A stretch of 64,000 nt of DNA. Source: Candidatus Poribacteria bacterium. Lineage in GTDB: Bacteria; Abyssobacteria; SURF-5. This document shows positions 54,108 to 64,000 of this stretch, piece after piece. Within the stretch, counting starts at the first letter, position 1, and each line of letters opens with the position of its first letter. The notes beneath the pieces were generated by a model. It saw nothing but the letters and a program-made list of their open reading frames with translations, was not told where the DNA came from and ran no database searches. The position numbers and the translations under genes were made by a program. The DNA lies in NCBI GenBank assembly GCA_016215705.1, contig JACRIR010000229.1:1-64000 (forward strand), given 5' to 3'.

Positions 54108-56570
54108 TCAGAAATAATGCGAAATGCGCCGCAGCCCCAAACTTATGCGTCTCTGAATTCCGCTCACAAGTTCTTCGTTCTCGACGGGAATCCGCAACGG
54201 CAAGAAAGATAATGCTCTCACTTTGAATTCCGGTTCCTCTTTGTATATGAAGTACGGCCGCACAATTCGGATCAGAGGCGGAAGAAACAATAGCGTTCCG
54301 GCGGCGCAGGTCAGCATCGTGAGAGCAATGAGCCAACCGAAGTCACGAAGCGCCTGAAACCGCGAACCGAGAAAAATGAGAAATCCGCACGACACCGAGA
54401 CCGTATTGAAAACAATTCCCTTTCCGGCGGTCATAAGCGTGTTGCGGACCGCTTGCTCCTCGCAGCCGGTCCGTTGATATTCCTCCCGGAATCTGTGAAT
54501 ATAGTGGACTGCAAAGTCAACGCCGACGCCGACGGCGATACCCGTAGTCATTGCCGTTGCTATATTCAACCGCATCCCCGTCAGCCCCATGACGCCAAAG
54601 GTATAAACTGTCGAGACACACAGAGGTATTATGCTCAGTAGTCCTCCGCTGAATGAGCGGAAATAGAGCGTACACACCAGCCAGACTATGACAACCGAGC
54701 AGATAATGTTGAGTATCTTGCCCGTTACGATATACCGATCCTGGCCGATAAGAATCATTGCGCGTCCTCCAAACTCGACGCGCGCCGCGCCCCCGAAGAT
54801 CTCAGATGCCTTTTCTCTCAATCTTTGGTATAAGGTTTGATGTTCGGCGTCGTCATACGTGTTGAGCATGATGATCATCTTCGCCCGCTGGTAATCGTAA
54901 TCAACGATATCCTCGAAGTCGGATGGGTCCCCGGACATGCTGTAGAGCAGCAGGTACTGCGCGGCCTGAGCTTTGTCCACAGGCAGTCCCATAGTGTCCC
55001 CTTCAGACTCGCCTAATGCAGAATCCAATCTCCGCATAATGTCAACGAAAGAGGTGGCATAGCCCACGTGTTCCTGCGCTTTTGCGAATTCCTGGAATTC
55101 GTCCATCTTCCGCAGCAATGACGGCTCAATGATTCCCTCGCGCTCATCGGCCTCGACCATGAGGTTGAAACATGTGGAACCGCCAAGTTTCCGGTTAAAT
55201 ACGTCGAGTGATTTCCGCGTCGGATGCCCCTCGGGGAAGAACTTCGCGGGCTCGAGTCCCACCTTGAGGCGCGTCGTCGCCACAATCGCCAACACAAACC
55301 CGACAGCGGCAGCGAACGCATATGTCTTCCCGCGCTTCTGGACTCGTTCGTAGAGGTTGACGATGAGCCAGTCCGCAAGCCTCGATCTTCTTGCCCGTCC
55401 CGCTCTCACGGATCCGAAAGGGATCAGCGCGAAGGCCGCCGGAATGAATACCAGCGAAGAGATGAGTCCAAACGTGATGGCGAAGGCAAGAATCAGACCG
55501 AAATCGTGAATGGACCGAATCTTGAAAGTAACGAGAGAACCGAACCCGATTGCCGACGTCAGGGCGGAGATTGCAACGGGTCCGGACACCGTGCCCAGTG
55601 CGCCCCGAAGGCAATGCGGCCGGCCGGCGCCTTTCGCGAGTTCATGACCGAATGCGTTCACGACATGTATGCCGTATGCGCTCACCACGGCCACGATAAC
55701 CACTGGCAAGATGCTCCCGACAACGGTAACAGGCATTCCCGTATATCCCATCAGACCAAGTGTCGCCGCAACTGTTGCCAGAACAGCGACAGACGGAACA
55801 ACCACACTGTCTATCCTCCGAAAAGCCGGGATCAGTATTCCGACAACGAGGAGAAGGGAAATGGGGAACAGAATAGCTACGTCTTTTCTCATGGAACTGG
55901 TCACCTCATAATCGACCAGTGTGTCGCCGGTCACGAATATCCGTTCAGGGCCGGAATACCTATCTGCTATGGCGCGCATCTGTTTATGAAGTTTCGCCAC
56001 ATTGTGGCCCGGAACCAGGCTTGCCCGGAGAGCGACGGCAGTTCCATCGCTGGACACGAGTCGGCCGCACGACATGAAGTTGCTCTCTGTCAATTCCCGG
56101 ACTCTCAGCGCTTCTTCATCCGTGAGCGGCGCTTCCTCGAAAAAAGGAGCGACATCGAGCCCGCTTTCCTCACTCCGAATATTCTTGACTGTGCAAAGCG
56201 ATTTGACACTCCCCGGAATGACTCCTTGAACACCCTCGACCTCTCGCGTGATCGCAAGCAGTTTTGTCAGGGTTTTTCGGTTGTAGATTCCTTCATCGTT
56301 CACTAGCGCCATCATTAGGAGATCGCGTTCGCCAAAGATTTCCTCAAATCGACGATTTGTCCGAAGGATGGGATCATCTTCCGGCAAATCTCTCTCGAAC
56401 TGGTTGACGAACTGTACTCTCACGATTCCGAGTGAGAGAACCAGAGTGGCGAGCACAAACGCGACTACAGCAATCTTAGGGTGTCGGAGTATTCGGTCCG
56501 GAATGGCTAGCGTTGCCAGACTGTTGCCTATTTGCCGCCGGTTGAACTGCCTTTTCGCAGGGCCGACCAT
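54108..56570 (-). CDS. RND-superfamily (MMPL-type) exporter
   Basis: 820-residue membrane transporter with two repeats. Each has one helix, a large periplasmic loop, and a block of about five helices. The second repeat contains GIAVGVGVDFAVHYIHRF and the first SAYGIHVVNAF, typical of HpnN/MMPL exporters that move lipids or hydrophobic compounds. The start is ATG 56570 with AAAGGAG six bases upstream. It is tightly downstream of a TetR gene, and a shared 18-bp palindrome lies immediately before its start. Confidence 0.9.
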   Translation of the reverse strand: MVGPAKRQFNRRQIGNSLATLAIPDRILRHPKIAVVAFVLATLVLSLGIVRVQFVNQFERDLPEDDPILRTNRRFEEIFGERDLLMMALVNDEGIYNRKTLTKLLAITREVEGVQGVIPGSVKSLCTVKNIRSEESGLDVAPFFEEAPLTDEEALRVRELTESNFMSCGRLVSSDGTAVALRASLVPGHNVAKLHKQMRAIADRYSGPERIFVTGDTLVDYEVTSSMRKDVAILFPISLLLVVGILIPAFRRIDSVVVPSVAVLATVAATLGLMGYTGMPVTVVGSILPVVIVAVVSAYGIHVVNAFGHELAKGAGRPHCLRGALGTVSGPVAISALTSAIGFGSLVTFKIRSIHDFGLILAFAITFGLISSLVFIPAAFALIPFGSVRAGRARRSRLADWLIVNLYERVQKRGKTYAFAAAVGFVLAIVATTRLKVGLEPAKFFPEGHPTRKSLDVFNRKLGGSTCFNLMVEADEREGIIEPSLLRKMDEFQEFAKAQEHVGYATSFVDIMRRLDSALGESEGDTMGLPVDKAQAAQYLLLYSMSGDPSDFEDIVDYDYQRAKMIIMLNTYDDAEHQTLYQRLREKASEIFGGAARVEFGGRAMILIGQDRYIVTGKILNIICSVVIVWLVCTLYFRSFSGGLLSIIPLCVSTVYTFGVMGLTGMRLNIATAMTTGIAVGVGVDFAVHYIHRFREEYQRTGCEEQAVRNTLMTAGKGIVFNTVSVSCGFLIFLGSRFQALRDFGWLIALTMLTCAAGTLLFLPPLIRIVRPYFIYKEEPEFKVRALSFLPLRIPVENEELVSGIQRRISLGLRRISHYF

Positions 56571-56582
56571 GCTTGTCTCCTT

Positions 56583-56600
56583 TGAATGAATATTCATTCA
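56583..56600. promoter_or_regulatory. Perfect palindromic TetR operator upstream of the RND gene
   Basis: TGAATGAATATTCATTCA, perfect dyad. It matches the site before the tetR gene (57254-57271) at 16 of 18 positions. Confidence 0.8.
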
Positions 56601-56634
56601 TATATGTGCCAAAAAAAATTGCCCAACAATCCCT

Positions 56635-57243
56635 CTAATGCAGCCCGCGCCTGAGCACGCGCTCAACCGTCTCTTTCCCTTCTTCCAGTGAAATATCGTA
56701 TCTGTGCTTGACTTCGGGTAGCCTGTCGCTCAGAACCCAGATATGAAGCAAATTTTCCAGGCTGCCTAACAATGTCCACGCCACTACCCGGGCATCTACA
56801 TCCGACCGATATATCCCCCGTTTCTGTCCGTCATGAATAACATCAGTTATGATCTCCAGAAACTCCAATACCGACGAGATCGCCGTGCTCGAGAAGAACT
56901 TGCTGCTCTGACGCAACTCAATGGTCACCACCTCGGCAAACTCCCTGTCGTTTTTCATTGCCGAAATCGAGGAGCTCAGGATGATGGAAAGTCTTTGGTC
57001 CGGGTCATCGACGCCCTGCAATGCGCTTATCAATGTGCGATTGAGCTCGCCGATTCGCTCGTTGAAAATCGAGATCAGGATATCATCTTTGTTCTTGAAG
57101 TAGTTGTATATGGTTCCGACGGCGATGTTTGCCTTGTTTGCTATCTCGAGGGCTTTTGCCTTGTAAAATCCTGTCTTTGCGAAAACCTTGGTTGCCGCCT
57201 CGAGGATCGATTCTCGTATTGCCACTGATTTCTGTTTGGCCAT
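56635..57243 (-). CDS. TetR/AcrR-family repressor of the RND exporter
   Basis: 202-residue repressor with the HTH IANKANIAVGTIYNYFKNKDDIL at about residues 35-55. It is co-directional with the RND exporter gene 64 bp downstream. Matching palindromes lie immediately upstream of both genes, and its promoter is a perfect sigma-70 consensus, so it probably represses itself and the exporter until a ligand binds. Confidence 0.93.
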   Translation of the reverse strand: MAKQKSVAIRESILEAATKVFAKTGFYKAKALEIANKANIAVGTIYNYFKNKDDILISIFNERIGELNRTLISALQGVDDPDQRLSIILSSSISAMKNDREFAEVVTIELRQSSKFFSSTAISSVLEFLEIITDVIHDGQKRGIYRSDVDARVVAWTLLGSLENLLHIWVLSDRLPEVKHRYDISLEEGKETVERVLRRGLH

Positions 57244-57436: not shown

Positions 57437-58063
57437 CTACCCCTGCTCGTCCAGCTTGACGCGCGTGCTTATGAAAACATGATCGACCTCGATTGAGTAT
57501 GCGAGGCCGGCTTGCTGACAGATGTCGGCAATAATCGTGCGCAGAGATCGAGGCTGATCGGTTCGGATGCTTATTTTTGGATTGAGCGTTTTGCTGGGTC
57601 TATAAAAAATGGTCTGGTCCACGATTATGTTCACGTCGGTCAGAGACGTAAGCAATTTCGCAACTTCTCGTATATCCTGATTCGAGAAATCCACTCCCAC
57701 AGCTTCGTTTAACTTCTGATAGAATGCGTCTTGCGCTTCGCCCTTTTCTCTGTTTCTATCGATTGCCTTCTTGCACGTATCTATCGATTCGTCCACCATA
57801 TGATCGATCCCGTGCGGGCGCTCGTTCGCGAGGTTCGGATAATCTTTCCAGATTCTTTCGTATCCACGAAGGGCCTCCCTGTATTTTCGAAGCGCCAAAG
57901 CGTAATTCTTTTCGTCGAGCGCCTTTGCAGCCTCCTCCTCGATGGGTTTTACCTCGTGCAGAAACACGTATAAGGCCGATTTCTGAATCTCGAATGCCCG
58001 GGCATTAGGTGTGATGGCTGCAAACATCGCGCAAAGGGGGATAAGCAAAGCTGCGATCTTCAT
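57437..58063 (-). CDS. Periplasmic protein with secretin/STN-like domain
   Basis: 208-residue secreted protein with a signal peptide (about 1-23, ending NARA). A helical, TPR-like middle (ALDEKNYALALRKYREALRGYE) precedes a C-terminal secretin-N/STN-like domain (VGVDFSNQDIREVAKLLTSL, then IISRT-type strands). No secretin barrel is present. It starts within the end of the PHP gene (ATGA overlap), so the two are translated together. I cannot name a function. Confidence 0.75.
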   Translation of the reverse strand: MKIAALLIPLCAMFAAITPNARAFEIQKSALYVFLHEVKPIEEEAAKALDEKNYALALRKYREALRGYERIWKDYPNLANERPHGIDHMVDESIDTCKKAIDRNREKGEAQDAFYQKLNEAVGVDFSNQDIREVAKLLTSLTDVNIIVDQTIFYRPSKTLNPKISIRTDQPRSLRTIIADICQQAGLAYSIEVDHVFISTRVKLDEQG

Positions 58064-58767
58064 CGGGGTCCTCCAAACAGCAGATTCCGAATTGATCCCA
58101 CCGCCGCATCCGCAACATGGCCCAGCCCGTGTTTGCCGAATTCGATCAGTCTCAGCGGATTCGCAACTACTTCGACACGTCCGGCCTTGACTGCCTCGAG
58201 TATCGAGTCGGGGTCTTTTTCGGCGTCGACCAGGGAATAGGCCGCGCCGAATTTCTCAAGATGGTGACAATCCGAAGTGCAGAGAAGCGGCAGCCCGTAT
58301 TTTGCTGCGACTCGAACCGCAAACGCATTGAAATTTATGCGGCTATGGTAGAACCATGAATACTCGATTGCATCGAAGACGTCTATGTTTTTCCGCACAA
58401 GCCACATAAGGGAGGCAAAGTCGGGGAAATAGGGGTGCGGGGCAACTACCATGTTGAAAGGGGTTCGGAGGCGTCTGATGTCATTGAAAGTACGGGCGTT
58501 GAGGATATCGTCGTGCGCGTTCACTATCAGCACATGTTTTCCTTGGATAGTCTTTTCGATGCCCGGAATGAGCACGACGCCGCGCTCACGCGCATAATCC
58601 CGCAAATGGTCGTCGAAAGATATTCCATTGTGGTTCGTGATGCTTATAGCGTCGAAGCCCAGATGATGAGCCTTGTCGAGAAGCTCGTGGCTTGTGTGCT
58701 CGATAAGCTCTTGTGGATCATCTGCGGTATGAGTGTGGAGGTCGATTTTTAGGAGATCTTTGCGCAT
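58060..58767 (-). CDS. PHP-domain metal-dependent phosphoesterase
   Basis: 235-residue PHP-fold protein. Metal ligands are visible in IDLHTHTADDP, ISITNHNG, APHPY and CTSDCHH, as in HisK/YciV-type phosphoesterases. The start is the ATG at 58767 (MRKDLLKIDLHTH). The frame is open far upstream but that part is antisense to the kinase-like gene. The substrate is unknown. It overlaps the STN-domain gene by four bases and is divergent from the pseudokinase operon. Confidence 0.85.
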   Translation of the reverse strand: MRKDLLKIDLHTHTADDPQELIEHTSHELLDKAHHLGFDAISITNHNGISFDDHLRDYARERGVVLIPGIEKTIQGKHVLIVNAHDDILNARTFNDIRRLRTPFNMVVAPHPYFPDFASLMWLVRKNIDVFDAIEYSWFYHSRINFNAFAVRVAAKYGLPLLCTSDCHHLEKFGAAYSLVDAEKDPDSILEAVKAGRVEVVANPLRLIEFGKHGLGHVADAAVGSIRNLLFGGPR

Positions 58768-58815
58768 CGTTGATTCGATTTTAGTGATATCCGCCGGTTT
58801 TGTCAATCGAGCACG

Positions 58816-58844
58816 TTGACTTTTATAATTCGCAGAAATATAAT
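58816..58844 (+). promoter_or_regulatory. Sigma-70 promoter for the pseudokinase-Clp operon
   Basis: TTGACT, 17-bp spacer, TATAAT, 31 bp upstream of ATG 58876. Confidence 0.78.
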
Positions 58845-58875: not shown

Positions 58876-61071
58876 ATGTTCGAAGTCGGTCAGACGGTTG
58901 AGAATCAATATCTCGTCCTGGAGAGATACCGTGGCAGGCGGTGGACTCTCTACACCGTGCTCGATCGCATCTCGGAGAACGTCTTTACCGTGAAGAGGCC
59001 TTCGGAAAGCCTCAGATCCGACGCTTTCTCTGCCGCTCTTTTCAGGGAGAGGGCGAAGACCTGGATAAACGTCGGGGAATGCGACGAGATTGCCAAAGCA
59101 TACCTGATCAAGGATTTCGATGGAATCCCCCATCTTTTTGTCGAGTATATTGACGGCCCCACTCTTGCGGACGTCCTGAATTTGAGTCCGGGCAAGCCGC
59201 TGCCCGTTAATCAGATTATCGGCCTCATGAAAGAACTCGCCAACGGCATGCGATTCCTTCATACAGCGAGGCTTCCCGGGGAATCGATCGGTGTGATTCA
59301 TGGCGTGTTAACTCCTCGTAATATTCTTACGATTGCGGGAAATATCAAGATAACGGACGTCGGCCTTTCCATATCCATGCAACAACGTGCAGATGCAAGC
59401 GCCGGATCCCTACCTGACAGGATTCATTACATGGCGCCGGAACAAATCGAGGACCCGCAAAGAGCCGACCGGCTGACCGATATTTACTCCTTCGGCGCTG
59501 TCATGTATGAGGCCGCAACCGGCGCTCCGCCGACGATAAACGTACGACGCGGAGACCCGTTGATCGAAGCTGTGCGGCTCGATCCAGTTTCTCCGAGTTT
59601 GAGAAATCGATCGTGTCCGCAATGGTTGGAGGAAACCATTCTCAAGTGCATGGCCCGGAAGCCCGAGAACCGGTTTCAAAGTATTGACCAGATCATCTCG
59701 CTGGTGAATGACCTTGCAGGAAATGAAGGGATTCCGCAGGTCTCCCCGGATGACAAGGGCGAATCAGAGGAGGCCTCGAGGGTGGCCCGCGTGCGGGGCG
59801 TGGCCAAGAAGGAATCGCGTCGTCTCGACCACTACTATCTCGGAGTCGAGCATGTCATGATAGGTCTGCTCAATGAAGAAGAGAGCGTTGTAGTAAGTTG
59901 TCTGGGCGACATGGTGACTGCCGATCAGGTGCTTGAGAAGATGCTCTCGCGCCTCCCCAAAGGCGAAGGCCCCTGGTATTGGGACGGAATTCGAAAGACT
60001 CCCCGTTATGAGCGCGTAATGAAGCTCGCCCGAAAAATAAGACGCGCATATTCACCCAGTGACCGGATGCTTCCGCAGCACCTTCTCCTCGCAATACTGG
60101 AGGAAGGACGGAGCATCCCGGTTCGCGTTCTGCGCGAGTTGGGAGTTGACGTGGGGACCGTGGCCGAAAACCTCAAGCGAGAGATAATGCGAAGGCGTCC
60201 CGCAATCGTCGTCCCCGACTCGGGAATTCCCGGCGCGCGCTTCGCCGGCGTGGTTCCATGCACGACCGATGTCCCCTATTGTGTCCCGTTTGTCGGCCGC
60301 AGATCCGAATTAGAGAGGACACGGGACTTGCTCCTGAATGACAGGAAAGGGGTCTTGCTTGTAGGTGATGCCGGAGTGGGAAAAACGGCGCTCGTGCATG
60401 AGTTGGCATGTGTCGCGTCAGACGGCGCGCCTGCTCTCGAACCGGGACTCACCGGCATTTTTCAACTCCGACTCGCCGCCTTGCTCGCCGGCTCGGCCGA
60501 TGGAGAGCAGGCGCTCAGTTACCTGGGTGAAATGCTTGACGGCATCGTCGGCGCGCATGCGATTCTACTGATTGAGGATATCCCGACGCTTCTCGGCCTC
60601 GATATCAAGATGCCTGCCCGGGGCGCTGCAGAAATTCTAGGTGACTACATTTTATCGAAGGGACTATTGGTCGTCGCAAGCGCCCTGCCCTCAGGATATG
60701 CCTTCTGCGAATCCAATTATCCGGAATTGGTGGCGCGCCTCGAGATAGTTAACCTGCGCGAGCCCTCGTTCGAGGAAATGCTTGAGATGCTGGCGGCGGC
60801 GAAAAGAAGGTTTGAGCTCGAGCACTCAGTCAACATCTCCGATGACGCGCTTGCGGCGGTTCTGAGAGCTTCAGAAATATTTGTGTCAGGAAGCGCTCTT
60901 CCCGGAAAAGCATTTGAGCTTCTCGATCGCATCTGCGCCGCGCGGGCATGCACAAGAGCCTCCGGAGGAGCGCTTGAACAGGAAACAATCACCGCCGCGT
61001 GCGTTGAAGGCGCGTTCTCCGACGGCGACAAGCAAGCGTCTCAAAATGAAGATTGGGTGCTGAATACATGA
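58876..61071 (+). CDS. Pseudokinase-ClpN-AAA+ fusion protein
   Basis: 731-residue multidomain protein. Residues 1-280 are a Ser/Thr kinase fold: the ATP Lys40 (FTVKRP), the DFG-like DVG at 161-163 and an APE motif are kept. The catalytic HRDLKPxN reads HGVLTPRN (142-149), so the catalytic Asp is missing and it is a likely pseudokinase. Residues 303-435 are a Clp N-domain pair. Residues 472-690 are a ClpB-D1-like AAA+ domain with Walker A GDAGVGKT (497-504) and Walker B LLIED. The pore loop KYRG and Arg-finger pair of ClpB are not evident. ATG 58876 follows GGAGG. FHA and B-box genes follow. Confidence 0.85.
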   Translation: MFEVGQTVENQYLVLERYRGRRWTLYTVLDRISENVFTVKRPSESLRSDAFSAALFRERAKTWINVGECDEIAKAYLIKDFDGIPHLFVEYIDGPTLADVLNLSPGKPLPVNQIIGLMKELANGMRFLHTARLPGESIGVIHGVLTPRNILTIAGNIKITDVGLSISMQQRADASAGSLPDRIHYMAPEQIEDPQRADRLTDIYSFGAVMYEAATGAPPTINVRRGDPLIEAVRLDPVSPSLRNRSCPQWLEETILKCMARKPENRFQSIDQIISLVNDLAGNEGIPQVSPDDKGESEEASRVARVRGVAKKESRRLDHYYLGVEHVMIGLLNEEESVVVSCLGDMVTADQVLEKMLSRLPKGEGPWYWDGIRKTPRYERVMKLARKIRRAYSPSDRMLPQHLLLAILEEGRSIPVRVLRELGVDVGTVAENLKREIMRRRPAIVVPDSGIPGARFAGVVPCTTDVPYCVPFVGRRSELERTRDLLLNDRKGVLLVGDAGVGKTALVHELACVASDGAPALEPGLTGIFQLRLAALLAGSADGEQALSYLGEMLDGIVGAHAILLIEDIPTLLGLDIKMPARGAAEILGDYILSKGLLVVASALPSGYAFCESNYPELVARLEIVNLREPSFEEMLEMLAAAKRRFELEHSVNISDDALAAVLRASEIFVSGSALPGKAFELLDRICAARACTRASGGALEQETITAACVEGAFSDGDKQASQNEDWVLNT

Positions 61072-61436
61072 AGGCGCCCGAAATAAACAGAGCCCATAGA
61101 GCAAAAGAACCTGTCTCCGGAAAATTCGTCATCGAGGTCATGAATGGTCCTGAAGACGGGCGAACTACGGTTTGCGACCAAATGCCGATCACCATCGGGA
61201 GAGCAACAGACAACGCTGTGCATCTTCCGTATGATCATCTCATCTCCCGACACCACGCTCGACTTGTTGAGGCGGAGGGCAAGATGATGGTCTGCGACCT
61301 CAAGAGCACTAATGGCACATTCGTCGGAAGCAGGCGCGTCCACGGCAAAATTGTCATAGAGCGCGGGAAGCTCTTCCGTGTGGGCGCCACTCTGCTCTGC
61401 ATGAGATCGGGTGAGGCTGAGTCCACGGACAAGTGA
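61068..61436 (+). CDS. FHA-domain protein
   Basis: 122-residue protein made almost entirely of one forkhead-associated domain, which binds phosphothreonine. The signature is complete: ITIGRATDNAVHL, ISRHHARL and DLKSTNGTFV. The ATG overlaps the pseudokinase-Clp stop (ATGA), so translation is coupled and the two likely work together. Since that kinase is predicted to be inactive, the phosphorylated target must come from elsewhere, or the FHA may bind without phosphate. Confidence 0.92.
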   Translation: MKAPEINRAHRAKEPVSGKFVIEVMNGPEDGRTTVCDQMPITIGRATDNAVHLPYDHLISRHHARLVEAEGKMMVCDLKSTNGTFVGSRRVHGKIVIERGKLFRVGATLLCMRSGEAESTDK

Positions 61437-61451
61437 TAGGGTGTGACGCGC

Positions 61452-63323
61452 ATGGGGACTAAGGACCACGGCGCCGGCGGACGAGATCATGTTAGGCCGC
61501 GGAGAAAACTGCCCTGTGTCAACCATCCGAAAACTCCCGCCGCAGCTCGCTGCCAGGTTTGCGGGAATCCGATATGCTCTCAGTGTCTCACTTCGTACGA
61601 GGGCGCGCAGATTTGCAGCAGCCAATGCTGGAACGCGAGGGTAACGAGCGAATCCGCTACGGCAGCCACTGAGGAAAAGGCGCGCCGCAGAAAGAAGGAG
61701 AAAGTTGCGGATCGCGCGGTGACCATAGTATTGTTGAGCGCATTCATTATCATAGTGGCCGTCGCCGGGATTTTCGCTTACGTCAAGCTCTCGAATCATG
61801 CCGGAGAGAAGATTTGGGAGTACTCCGATTCAGCCGGATACCTTTCTTTTTCCATTCAGCCGGATTCAAACACACTCTTTCTCCTGTCAAGGGACAAGCT
61901 CGAGGCAATCCACTCGCTTACGGGCAGAAGTACGTGGAGCGTCAAACTGCCCGAGAGGGTGAGCTCACCGAGAATATTCATAATTGATGATGATCGATGC
62001 CTACTGAGTCTCAAGAACAAGGTGCTCTTGTGCGGTTCGGCTCAGGCCACTCCCATGTGGGTGTATTCGGCCCCTCAACCTTTCATGTCCGCCCGGCCGG
62101 TTTTCTTTGATAACCGTCTCTATTCGGCAAGCTCCGCAGGCGGATATCCCACCTTCTATTCAGGGGAAGATTCTGATTACTTCGACAGAGACTACTACTA
62201 TCTCGAAGAGGATTTTGACTCCGAGGAAGGGGAGGACCTTTCCGTGTCGTGGAGGAAGAGGAGCCAGGGCCAGGACAAAGAAGAAAAGAAAGCATCGACC
62301 GTCAGCTCCGTCGATATGACTTCCGGTGCGCAATTGTGGAAAACCGAACTGGAAGACCGCAGAGTCGGCGGCCTGATGGCTGATAAGGACTATGTCTATG
62401 TTGTCGCATATGATTTCGACGATGACTTGCGAAGCAGATACCGGTTACAAGCGGAAGATACCAAGTCCGGCGCTGAACAGCAGGCTGGATCGGACGAACA
62501 AGTCGGAAGCGCTCAACTCTGGGCCTTGAATGCTGCGACCGGAAAAGCCGAATGGAAACTGGAGGGCGGAGGAGGCTTCGTCATTCCTCCAATGATGAGC
62601 GGGGAAGGCATCGTCTTTTCGACCGAAAAAAATATCTACTTGATCTCGGCGAGCGGGCAAATCAAATGGACTTATCCGATCCCGGACAAACTCATCAGCT
62701 CGTTTCAACCTTACACGGATAAACTGTTTGTGTCAACGAGTGACGGCTTCCTTTTTTGCCTCGATCTCGCAACCGGACAGAAGAAATGGATGACTGAAAT
62801 CGGGGATGATCCCGGCAGGATCGTCGTTTCGCCTCCGCTGCTTTATGTCTCCGGCTTGGCCAGGAGAGAGGAGGTCGAACGCAAGGTGATTCCAACGAAA
62901 CGGTGGCAAGGCTCAGAGGACCTGCTGAAAAAGGCCCTCAAACCTTCCGGCCCGACGTATGAAAAGATTCTCCTCGGCATTGACATCGAGAGCGGCCAAA
63001 CACGCGTGTCAATACCCAAGATCACCGGCAATTTTGCACACGGGGGCGGCGTGCTCTATGCGCTTCGCTATTTCGAATGGATGCAGTTCCTCGATGCGAG
63101 CGCCGATCCTACTCAATTATCAAAGACTGTCTCAAACCTCGGCGCCTATGATGCCTTGAGCGGCGAGAAGATTTGGGAGACTGCGATAGAGGGATACGCC
63201 TCGAACCTCAGTTTGGGAAAGAACGCTGTTTTCATTACTGCGCGTTTTCAGGAAGTCAGTCTGGCCGCCGACCAGGGCAATAAGATAATACCAACTCGCT
63301 TGATAGGTATTTCCCTCCAATAG
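61452..63323 (+). CDS. Membrane-anchored PQQ-repeat beta-propeller with N-terminal B-box zinc finger
   Basis: About 623 residues. A cytoplasmic B-box-like zinc finger (CVNHPKTPAAARCQVCGNPI, then CSQC ... SSQC, residues 22-60) precedes a basic stretch (ARRRKKEK) and one transmembrane helix (about 88-112). The extracytoplasmic remainder consists of PQQ-type blades such as LWALNAATGKAEWKLEGGGG and FCLDLATGQKKW, with an acidic Tyr-rich insert near 240-270. GTG 61443 is an alternative start. It follows the FHA gene by a few bases, placing a zinc finger and a propeller in one signalling or quality-control operon. Confidence 0.82.
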   Translation: MGTKDHGAGGRDHVRPRRKLPCVNHPKTPAAARCQVCGNPICSQCLTSYEGAQICSSQCWNARVTSESATAATEEKARRRKKEKVADRAVTIVLLSAFIIIVAVAGIFAYVKLSNHAGEKIWEYSDSAGYLSFSIQPDSNTLFLLSRDKLEAIHSLTGRSTWSVKLPERVSSPRIFIIDDDRCLLSLKNKVLLCGSAQATPMWVYSAPQPFMSARPVFFDNRLYSASSAGGYPTFYSGEDSDYFDRDYYYLEEDFDSEEGEDLSVSWRKRSQGQDKEEKKASTVSSVDMTSGAQLWKTELEDRRVGGLMADKDYVYVVAYDFDDDLRSRYRLQAEDTKSGAEQQAGSDEQVGSAQLWALNAATGKAEWKLEGGGGFVIPPMMSGEGIVFSTEKNIYLISASGQIKWTYPIPDKLISSFQPYTDKLFVSTSDGFLFCLDLATGQKKWMTEIGDDPGRIVVSPPLLYVSGLARREEVERKVIPTKRWQGSEDLLKKALKPSGPTYEKILLGIDIESGQTRVSIPKITGNFAHGGGVLYALRYFEWMQFLDASADPTQLSKTVSNLGAYDALSGEKIWETAIEGYASNLSLGKNAVFITARFQEVSLAADQGNKIIPTRLIGISLQ

Positions 63324-63331
63324 GGTGTTCC

Positions 63332-64000
63332 ATGCGTCTTCCGGAAAGTGGTGGGCCAATCACCAACCGCATCGTTGACCTGCTCGGAAACTCAATCGAG
63401 CTTACTACCGAGTATTGCTGCAAGTACCACCCCCGCAAGAATGCCACTTCCATGTGTGAATGTTGCGGAGCAGACCTCTGCTCCGATTGCTCAAACATCC
63501 GCACACGTCGAGTGGTCTGCTCCAAATGCATGAGCACGCTTGACAAGACGTTCTCCGGAATGGGACCGGCTTCGTTGTTTACGCGCGTATTCACCCATCC
63601 TTTTGCCATAGCGCTCGTCCTGATCTCAATCCTCGGCTACCTTCTTTTCAGCTTTGGTCAAACCCATCGAAAGGGGCTGCTCAGAGGCGCTTCTGCGGCT
63701 GTTGACGCCTCCGAAGAACAACTCCGCCTGAAAATGCTTCTCTATGCTCAGAAGGCGGAAAGAGTCGAAACACATGCCGACGCCCTGCGCGAGGAGGGCC
63801 GTCTTGGAGAAGCCAACCGTGACTGTGACCGCGCAAGAACGATCTACGAAATGTTGACCCAGGAGGCAACCGGCAGGTGGGAGCACAACATCGTTACGCT
63901 TGCCCGCGCGCGGCTCCTGGAAAAGATGGGGGAACACTCATACGCCGAGGGCCTCTACAGGAGTCTGGCCAACATGCCGGAGCCCGACAAGACGTACGCG
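63332..64000 (+). CDS. B-box zinc finger membrane protein with TPR-like tail, partial at right edge
   Basis: An open frame of 223 codons runs from ATG 63332 to the end of the window without a stop. It has an N-terminal B-box-like zinc finger (CCKYHPRKNATSMCECCGAD, then LCSDCSN ... VCSKC), one transmembrane helix (about residues 89-108, FAIALVLISILGYLLF) and a helical, TPR-like region (about 125-223). The N-terminal layout repeats that of the preceding PQQ gene, suggesting a paired membrane complex. The gene begins eight bases after the PQQ gene stops and continues beyond the window. Confidence 0.78.
   Translation, partial: MRLPESGGPITNRIVDLLGNSIELTTEYCCKYHPRKNATSMCECCGADLCSDCSNIRTRRVVCSKCMSTLDKTFSGMGPASLFTRVFTHPFAIALVLISILGYLLFSFGQTHRKGLLRGASAAVDASEEQLRLKMLLYAQKAERVETHADALREEGRLGEANRDCDRARTIYEMLTQEATGRWEHNIVTLARARLLEKMGEHSYAEGLYRSLANMPEPDKTYA

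Follow-up and report, generated by a model that had tools for sequence, protein, structure and literature searches.

A conserved operon headed by a pseudokinase–Clp N-domain–AAA fusion in Candidatus Abyssobacteria

Gene organization of the locus

The window analyzed here, 64,000 nucleotides long, lies at the start of an 82.6 kb contig in a 5.5 Mb genome of Candidatus Abyssobacteria, a lineage known from the deep subsurface (PMC6121073). Its last part holds a forward-strand operon with the order pseudokinase–Clp N–AAA fusion, FHA protein, B-box/transmembrane/propeller protein, B-box/transmembrane/TPR protein and rhomboid/TPR protein. The first gene (58876-61071, +) encodes 731 residues in which pseudokinase, Clp N-domain and degenerate AAA module are fused, as recognized by Pfam, AlphaFold and Foldseek and by comparison with the orthologues L005 (52%) and L006 (46%). 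Its stop codon overlaps the ATG of a single-domain FHA gene (61068-61436, +) in an ATGA junction at 61068, confirming an overlap noticed in the original prediction. The third gene (61443-63323, +) encodes a B-box zinc finger followed by a single transmembrane helix (about 93-111) and a BamB-like beta-propeller, assigned from Pfam and hydropathy; the fourth (63332-64000 in the window, +) encodes a B-box-like zinc finger, a transmembrane helix and TPRs. Reading past position 64000, as had been proposed, extended the fourth gene to contig position 64435; behind it comes the gene for a TPR-bearing rhomboid protease (contig 64432-65724, beyond the window edge). Gene overlaps in the operon are of the ATGA/GTGA type, and a biotin carboxylase gene begins about 250 bases past the rhomboid/TPR gene.

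A consensus scan placed a putative divergent promoter pair between the operon and a PHP-domain gene (58778-58844, both strands), the sites being consensus matches only. Two overlapping sigma-70-like candidates face the operon, TTGACT-17-TATAAT at 58816-58844 and TTGTCA-18-TATAAT at 58800-58829 (both +), and one faces the PHP gene, TTGACA-17-TAAAAT at 58806-58778 (−); each matches the consensus at 11 of 12 positions. A ribosome-binding site, GGAGG, precedes the ATG at 58876. The PHP gene (58060-58767, −; Pfam PHP_C, 1.6e-10) is kept as a neighbor in all three genomes compared. It adjoins a gene for an exported protein (57437-58063, −) that has a helical repeat region and a single, isolated secretin N0-like domain (weak GspD N0 match, 0.002), and synteny of this pair is likewise preserved in the three genomes. 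An MMPL-family exporter and the adjoining TetR regulator (54108-57243, −) form an ordinary pair.

Domains and fold of the fusion protein

The presence of a kinase fold, a Clp N pair and an AAA module in one frame was confirmed by Pfam and AlphaFold. The protein divides into a kinase (residues 1-285), a linker (286-299), a double Clp N-domain (300-440), a second linker (441-470) and an AAA module (471-700), with Pfam matches to PK_Tyr_Ser-Thr (6.5e-23), Clp_N (5.2e-16, in two stretches) and AAA_lid_9 (1.5e-11). Although the structure-input alignment put the first Clp N repeat of the controls over the kinase columns, the AlphaFold model was confident (pLDDT 86.7, pTM 0.78). Foldseek matched this model to ClpC and PknB, ClpC structures being the best fold matches and PknB reaching a TM-score of about 0.8 by target. 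By sequence, the kinase matches StkP/PknB.

The kinase has lost its HRD aspartate

The sequence HGVLTPRN stands in place of HRDLKPEN at residues 142-149 (59299-59322, +). The replaced HRD Asp of the original prediction holds for all three orthologues, where this position reads HGVLTPRN, HGNLCPRN and HGGLNPQV, the Asp being changed to V, N and G. The same three proteins lack the Gly-rich loop, which gives way to an invariant bulky Trp, and have R, N and K for the alphaC Glu. HRD is retained in nearly all other Abyssobacterial kinases sampled. Bacterial pseudokinases are defined by the absence of one or more of the beta3 Lys, the HRD Asp and the DFG Asp (PMC12599244); the fusion has the kinase fold and lacks at least one of these residues, the HRD Asp, in three of three orthologues. 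On its sequence the fusion kinase is, by the usual definition, a bacterial pseudokinase. It may still bind ATP or have an atypical activity, since the beta3 Lys (Lys40) and the DFG-position Asp (Asp161) are retained.

An active-looking relative, P0005, is encoded in the sister genus G001 (L036:8602-9906, contig C67, −). Its kinase motifs are intact (HRDLTPAN and DFG), and it carries a divergent Clp N-like double domain and no AAA module. The Clp N-like part was identified by hhalign (4e-6) and a matching helix order, in a model of low confidence (pLDDT about 40-77). In a kinase tree, P0005 and the pseudokinases form one clade with support of 99/94 on long branches, and P0005 shares with the G000 fusion, the one in the window, the residues LTP after the HRD position. 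Because the pseudokinases group with this active-looking protein, catalysis was probably lost after fusion; the data suggest that kinase and Clp N-domain were joined first and that P0005 is a possible ancestor type. An intact-HRD relative with separate domains had been named as evidence that would count against the original prediction. P0005 corresponds to this in part: its HRD is intact, but kinase and Clp N-like domain are not separate. The Clp tree did not separate a ClpC-side from a ClpB-side origin of the AAA module, whose branch is long.

A conserved Clp N-domain precedes a degenerate AAA module

The double Clp N-domain (59773-60195, +; Pfam Clp_N, and hhalign 1.9e-18 to ClpC/B N-domains) is the most conserved part of the fusion. 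The single AAA module (60286-60975, +) keeps a Walker A motif, GDAGVGKT, and has an altered Walker B, LIED, and a pore loop, GSADGE, without Tyr. Its motifs were judged against 37 aligned Clp D1 controls, with ClpC and ClpB of the same genome as further references. Across the three orthologues, the pore loop KYRG has become SADG, SEDG or TEDD, with loss of the Tyr; Walker B IDE has become IED, IED or VEG (DE changed to ED, or EG); and the Arg finger region ALxRRF has become LVARL, LIQCL or ILSHF, so that the Arg pair is not kept and one Arg is left in G000 only. G000 and G002 have an intact Walker A; G001 has GKK for GKT, without the Thr, and lacks the second acid of Walker B as well. A sensor-1-like Thr is kept in two orthologues and the lid helix in part (LPGKA). 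The frame stops after one module, and the fusion has no second AAA ring.

Of the hallmarks of an Hsp100/Clp unfoldase, the Clp N-domain is present, while the aromatic pore loop, the Walker B DE and the Arg finger are not, and the two AAA rings of class 1 Hsp100 proteins (ClpB/ClpC/ClpA) are likewise lacking. The single ClpB-D1-like AAA+ module of the original prediction is there, but its pore loop, Walker B and Arg finger are degenerate and an active unfoldase is unlikely. Identity between genera is 62-64% for the Clp N-domain and 31-44% for the AAA core, against 93-97% for the ClpC D1 of the same genomes, which argues that the motor is relaxed and that selection acts on the N-domain. Collectively, the AAA module looks dead or crippled, and by the motifs tested the fusion is not a functional Clp unfoldase.

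ClpC N-domains bind phosphoarginine via two pockets (PMC12583610). In the fusion, the first pocket keeps its Glu (E325) and the second has Gln instead in each of the three orthologues, so that a one-pocket phosphoarginine reader or decoy becomes a testable idea for this domain. In each of the three genomes a McsB arginine kinase gene adjoins ClpC. This arrangement in an uncultured candidate phylum, with the McsB-type kinase directly before ClpC, lies at G000:C269:14363-16500 and at the orthologous places in G001 and G002.

FHA, B-box and rhomboid partners

The FHA protein (Pfam FHA, 3.7e-14) has intact phosphothreonine-binding residues in all three genomes: the GR, SxxH and NG motifs are present, here as GRATDN, SRHHA and STNGTF. 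Its closest solved relatives include the Rv1747 FHA, OdhI and GarA, the last two being actinobacterial FHA switches.

The two genes that follow encode B-box/transmembrane proteins, as predicted. The first matches the Pfam B-box at 5.9e-5, just under the cut-off, and PQQ_2/BamB propellers at 2.2e-22; the second gives a weaker B-box match (0.03), yet its Cys/His pattern is complete. Both have the Cys/His zinc pattern and then a transmembrane helix, the arrangement of prokaryotic B-box membrane proteins. From the hydropathy and the strongly positive stretch (+5) ahead of its helix, the propeller protein probably has its zinc finger in the cytosol and its propeller in the periplasm. The three Abyssobacterial genomes hold about 11-12 matches each to B-box-like zinc fingers, several above the Pfam cut-off, which suggests an expanded family. 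With about 11 B-box membrane proteins per genome, the B-box membrane feature by itself is not special.

The rhomboid has its catalytic motifs, the GxSG serine, a transmembrane His and HxxxN, in all three genomes (HIVGN, GASG and AHIGG, with conservative variants). Its C-terminal TPRs are predicted to be cytosolic from one helix that precedes the active-site residues and a +5 segment behind the last helix.

Conservation and distribution

The fusion, FHA and B-box-propeller genes occur in the same order, as open frames, in three genera of one family (G000, G001 and G002). Identities to G000 in the other two genera are about 50-52% and 46% for the fusion, 57% and 55% for FHA, and 49% and 30% for the propeller protein. 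The same order and open frames across three genera, at 46-52% identity for the fusion, are far beyond chance. Together with the loss of HRD at all three loci, this gene order supports the view of a membrane-linked set around an inactive kinase.

The neighbors are conserved to different degrees: FHA and the B-box-propeller keep their order in all three genomes, but the B-box-TPR and rhomboid genes lie away from the kinase in one of them. In G002 these two genes (49% and 62%) come directly after the propeller gene. In G001 they lie side by side on another contig, where a second propeller gene (40%) precedes them. The two are therefore less firmly tied to the fusion gene than FHA and the propeller, while the second propeller gene beside the rhomboid pair means that a propeller accompanies both halves of the set. 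This second G001 gene is split over two contig ends (L086:11488-12093 and L073:4867-7396, on C68 and C87), and a gene for 172 residues, with a short DUF7560-like Cys motif, is found upstream.

In 386 genomes sampled across Bacteria, the three-domain fusion was not among the 2 to 7 candidates scored per genome. When two conserved peptides served as patterns against 84,980 species genomes, the matches were SURF_17 and a kinase of ordinary type from Elusimicrobia, and no others. A Paraburkholderia plasmid match over 209-688 was rejected as a further fusion, being type VI ClpV, and so was a strongly diverged two-ring Clp ATPase of G013 (L087:5340-7679), whose Clp N motif, HYYLGVEH, resembles that of the fusion but which belongs to an ordinary heat-shock cluster beside sHSP and ClpB. 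The PADLOC matches were generic kinase matches, not defense genes, and a type VI secretion link was rejected since the three genomes have no VipB/TssC sheath gene. In the literature searched we found neither a kinase–Clp N or pseudokinase–Clp fusion nor a described system with this set of genes, in agreement with the original prediction. On this genomic evidence, the locus is real, conserved, lineage-restricted and unusual, and the whole matches no described system that we found.

Relation to known systems

One of the two nearest functional parallels is mycobacterial MviN (MurJ)-FhaA, where a pseudokinase domain works with an FHA protein and the kinase fold serves for docking (PMC12599244). 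Here, too, a pseudokinase is paired with an FHA protein. In MviN, however, the domain is fused to a lipid II flippase and has changes in all three motifs, whereas the present kinase retains the beta3 Lys and DFG-position Asp and is joined to Clp N and AAA rather than a flippase. Bacterial Ser/Thr pseudokinase families also include CP1, GLW and DYD, and CP1 too is a fusion, with COG3899 as its predicted ATPase part (PMC12599244); as described there, none of them carries a Clp N-domain or a Clp-type AAA module.

As in ClpC/ClpB, a double Clp N-domain precedes a D1-type AAA module, but the fusion has one ring, no middle domain, an altered pore loop, Arg finger and Walker B, and an N-terminal kinase. 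Type VI PpkA-Fha-ClpV brings kinase, FHA and ClpN-AAA parts together as well, there as separate active proteins. The other near functional parallel comes from Bacillus subtilis, where the TPR rhomboid YqgP and the AAA machine FtsH cooperate in membrane protein control (PMC7231995). The operon shares with YqgP a rhomboid with TPRs and an AAA-type partner; in contrast to active, membrane-bound FtsH, this AAA module is soluble, degenerate and Clp-type, and the TPRs are extracellular in YqgP and predicted to be cytosolic here.

Possible functions of the operon

Several functions can be proposed for this set of genes. A working single-ring ATPase of new mechanism, regulated by the pseudokinase, would make the fusion an ATP-driven membrane-protein remodeller. 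The intact Walker A of G000 and G002, the Walker B acids kept in swapped order, the sensor-1-like Thr in two orthologues, the partly kept lid helix and the full AAA fold predicted are consistent with this, but the lost pore-loop Tyr, the unconserved Arg finger, the single ring and the broken Walker A (GKK) and Walker B (EG) of G001 make it improbable. The loss of several catalytic motifs might equally be read as decay of a functionless gene; this is nearly refuted by frames that are full-length in all three genera, by a fusion identity of 46-52%, by the kept gene order, and by a Clp N-domain at 62-64% and a confident fold.

Two proposals dispense with a motor and seem to us unlikely to the same degree, though less so than a working ATPase. 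The fusion could act as a Clp decoy or anti-adaptor, its N-domain acting as a competitor of ClpC in the binding of adaptors or of substrates phosphorylated on arginine, or its ring poisoning or capping ClpC hexamers, and so protect membrane substrates. Such a role would suit the strong conservation of the N-domain, the kept E325, the McsB gene beside ClpC in every genome and the dead-looking ATPase; the Gln in the second pocket of all three proteins speaks against it, the contact with ClpC is putative, and the FHA and membrane genes would be left unexplained. A phosphothreonine relay for envelope assembly, of the MviN-FhaA type, would instead have an active kinase phosphorylate the pseudokinase, FHA dock there and the propeller and TPR proteins act on the envelope without proteolysis. 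The pseudokinase adjoins FHA as in MviN-FhaA (PMC12599244), the FHA residues are intact, the propeller is BamB-like and the rhomboid is unlinked in G001, all in line with a relay; yet it gives no role to the Clp N-domain, the most conserved part, and the BamB-like propeller is the operon's only envelope-assembly gene.

We favor a scaffold, because the conserved parts are the binding parts: the Clp N-domain, FHA, the kinase C-lobe and the membrane sensors. That the fusion is probably a non-catalytic scaffold rather than an enzyme is well supported by these patterns, and the ligand-sensor role first proposed for the inactive kinase did not gain support, a scaffold or docking role being at least equally likely. 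We infer a cytosolic scaffold at the inner membrane, whose Clp N-domain would bind a Clp-type adaptor or marked substrate, while the pseudokinase and degenerate AAA would offer surfaces for docking and assembly, perhaps gated by nucleotide in two of the three genomes. The FHA protein would bind phosphothreonine made by another kinase and couple assembly to a Ser/Thr kinase signal, and the B-box/transmembrane proteins would connect the scaffold to the periplasmic propeller and the TPR domain. With an active-looking rhomboid protease, its C-terminal TPRs predicted to be cytosolic, encoded in the same operon in two genomes, such a hub may bring substrates to rhomboid membrane proteolysis or to the ordinary ClpC/ClpP machine. 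We give about an even chance to this reading as a whole, in which scaffold, FHA gating and membrane sensor/rhomboid module make up a phosphorylation-gated hub. A more specific version is tentative and rather doubtful: a new membrane protein-control hub in which pseudokinase and pseudo-unfoldase surround a Clp degron-reading N-domain, gated by FHA and feeding the rhomboid, as a pseudoenzyme parallel to ERAD-like adaptors.

Bacterial pseudokinases are little explored, and P0005 of the sister genus and the pseudokinase fusion offer a natural before/after pair for the loss of catalysis. If the scaffold reading is true, two enzyme folds would have been retained for binding alone, with the Clp N-domain as functional core, and Ser/Thr phosphorylation, Clp-type recognition and intramembrane proteolysis would be joined in one operon.
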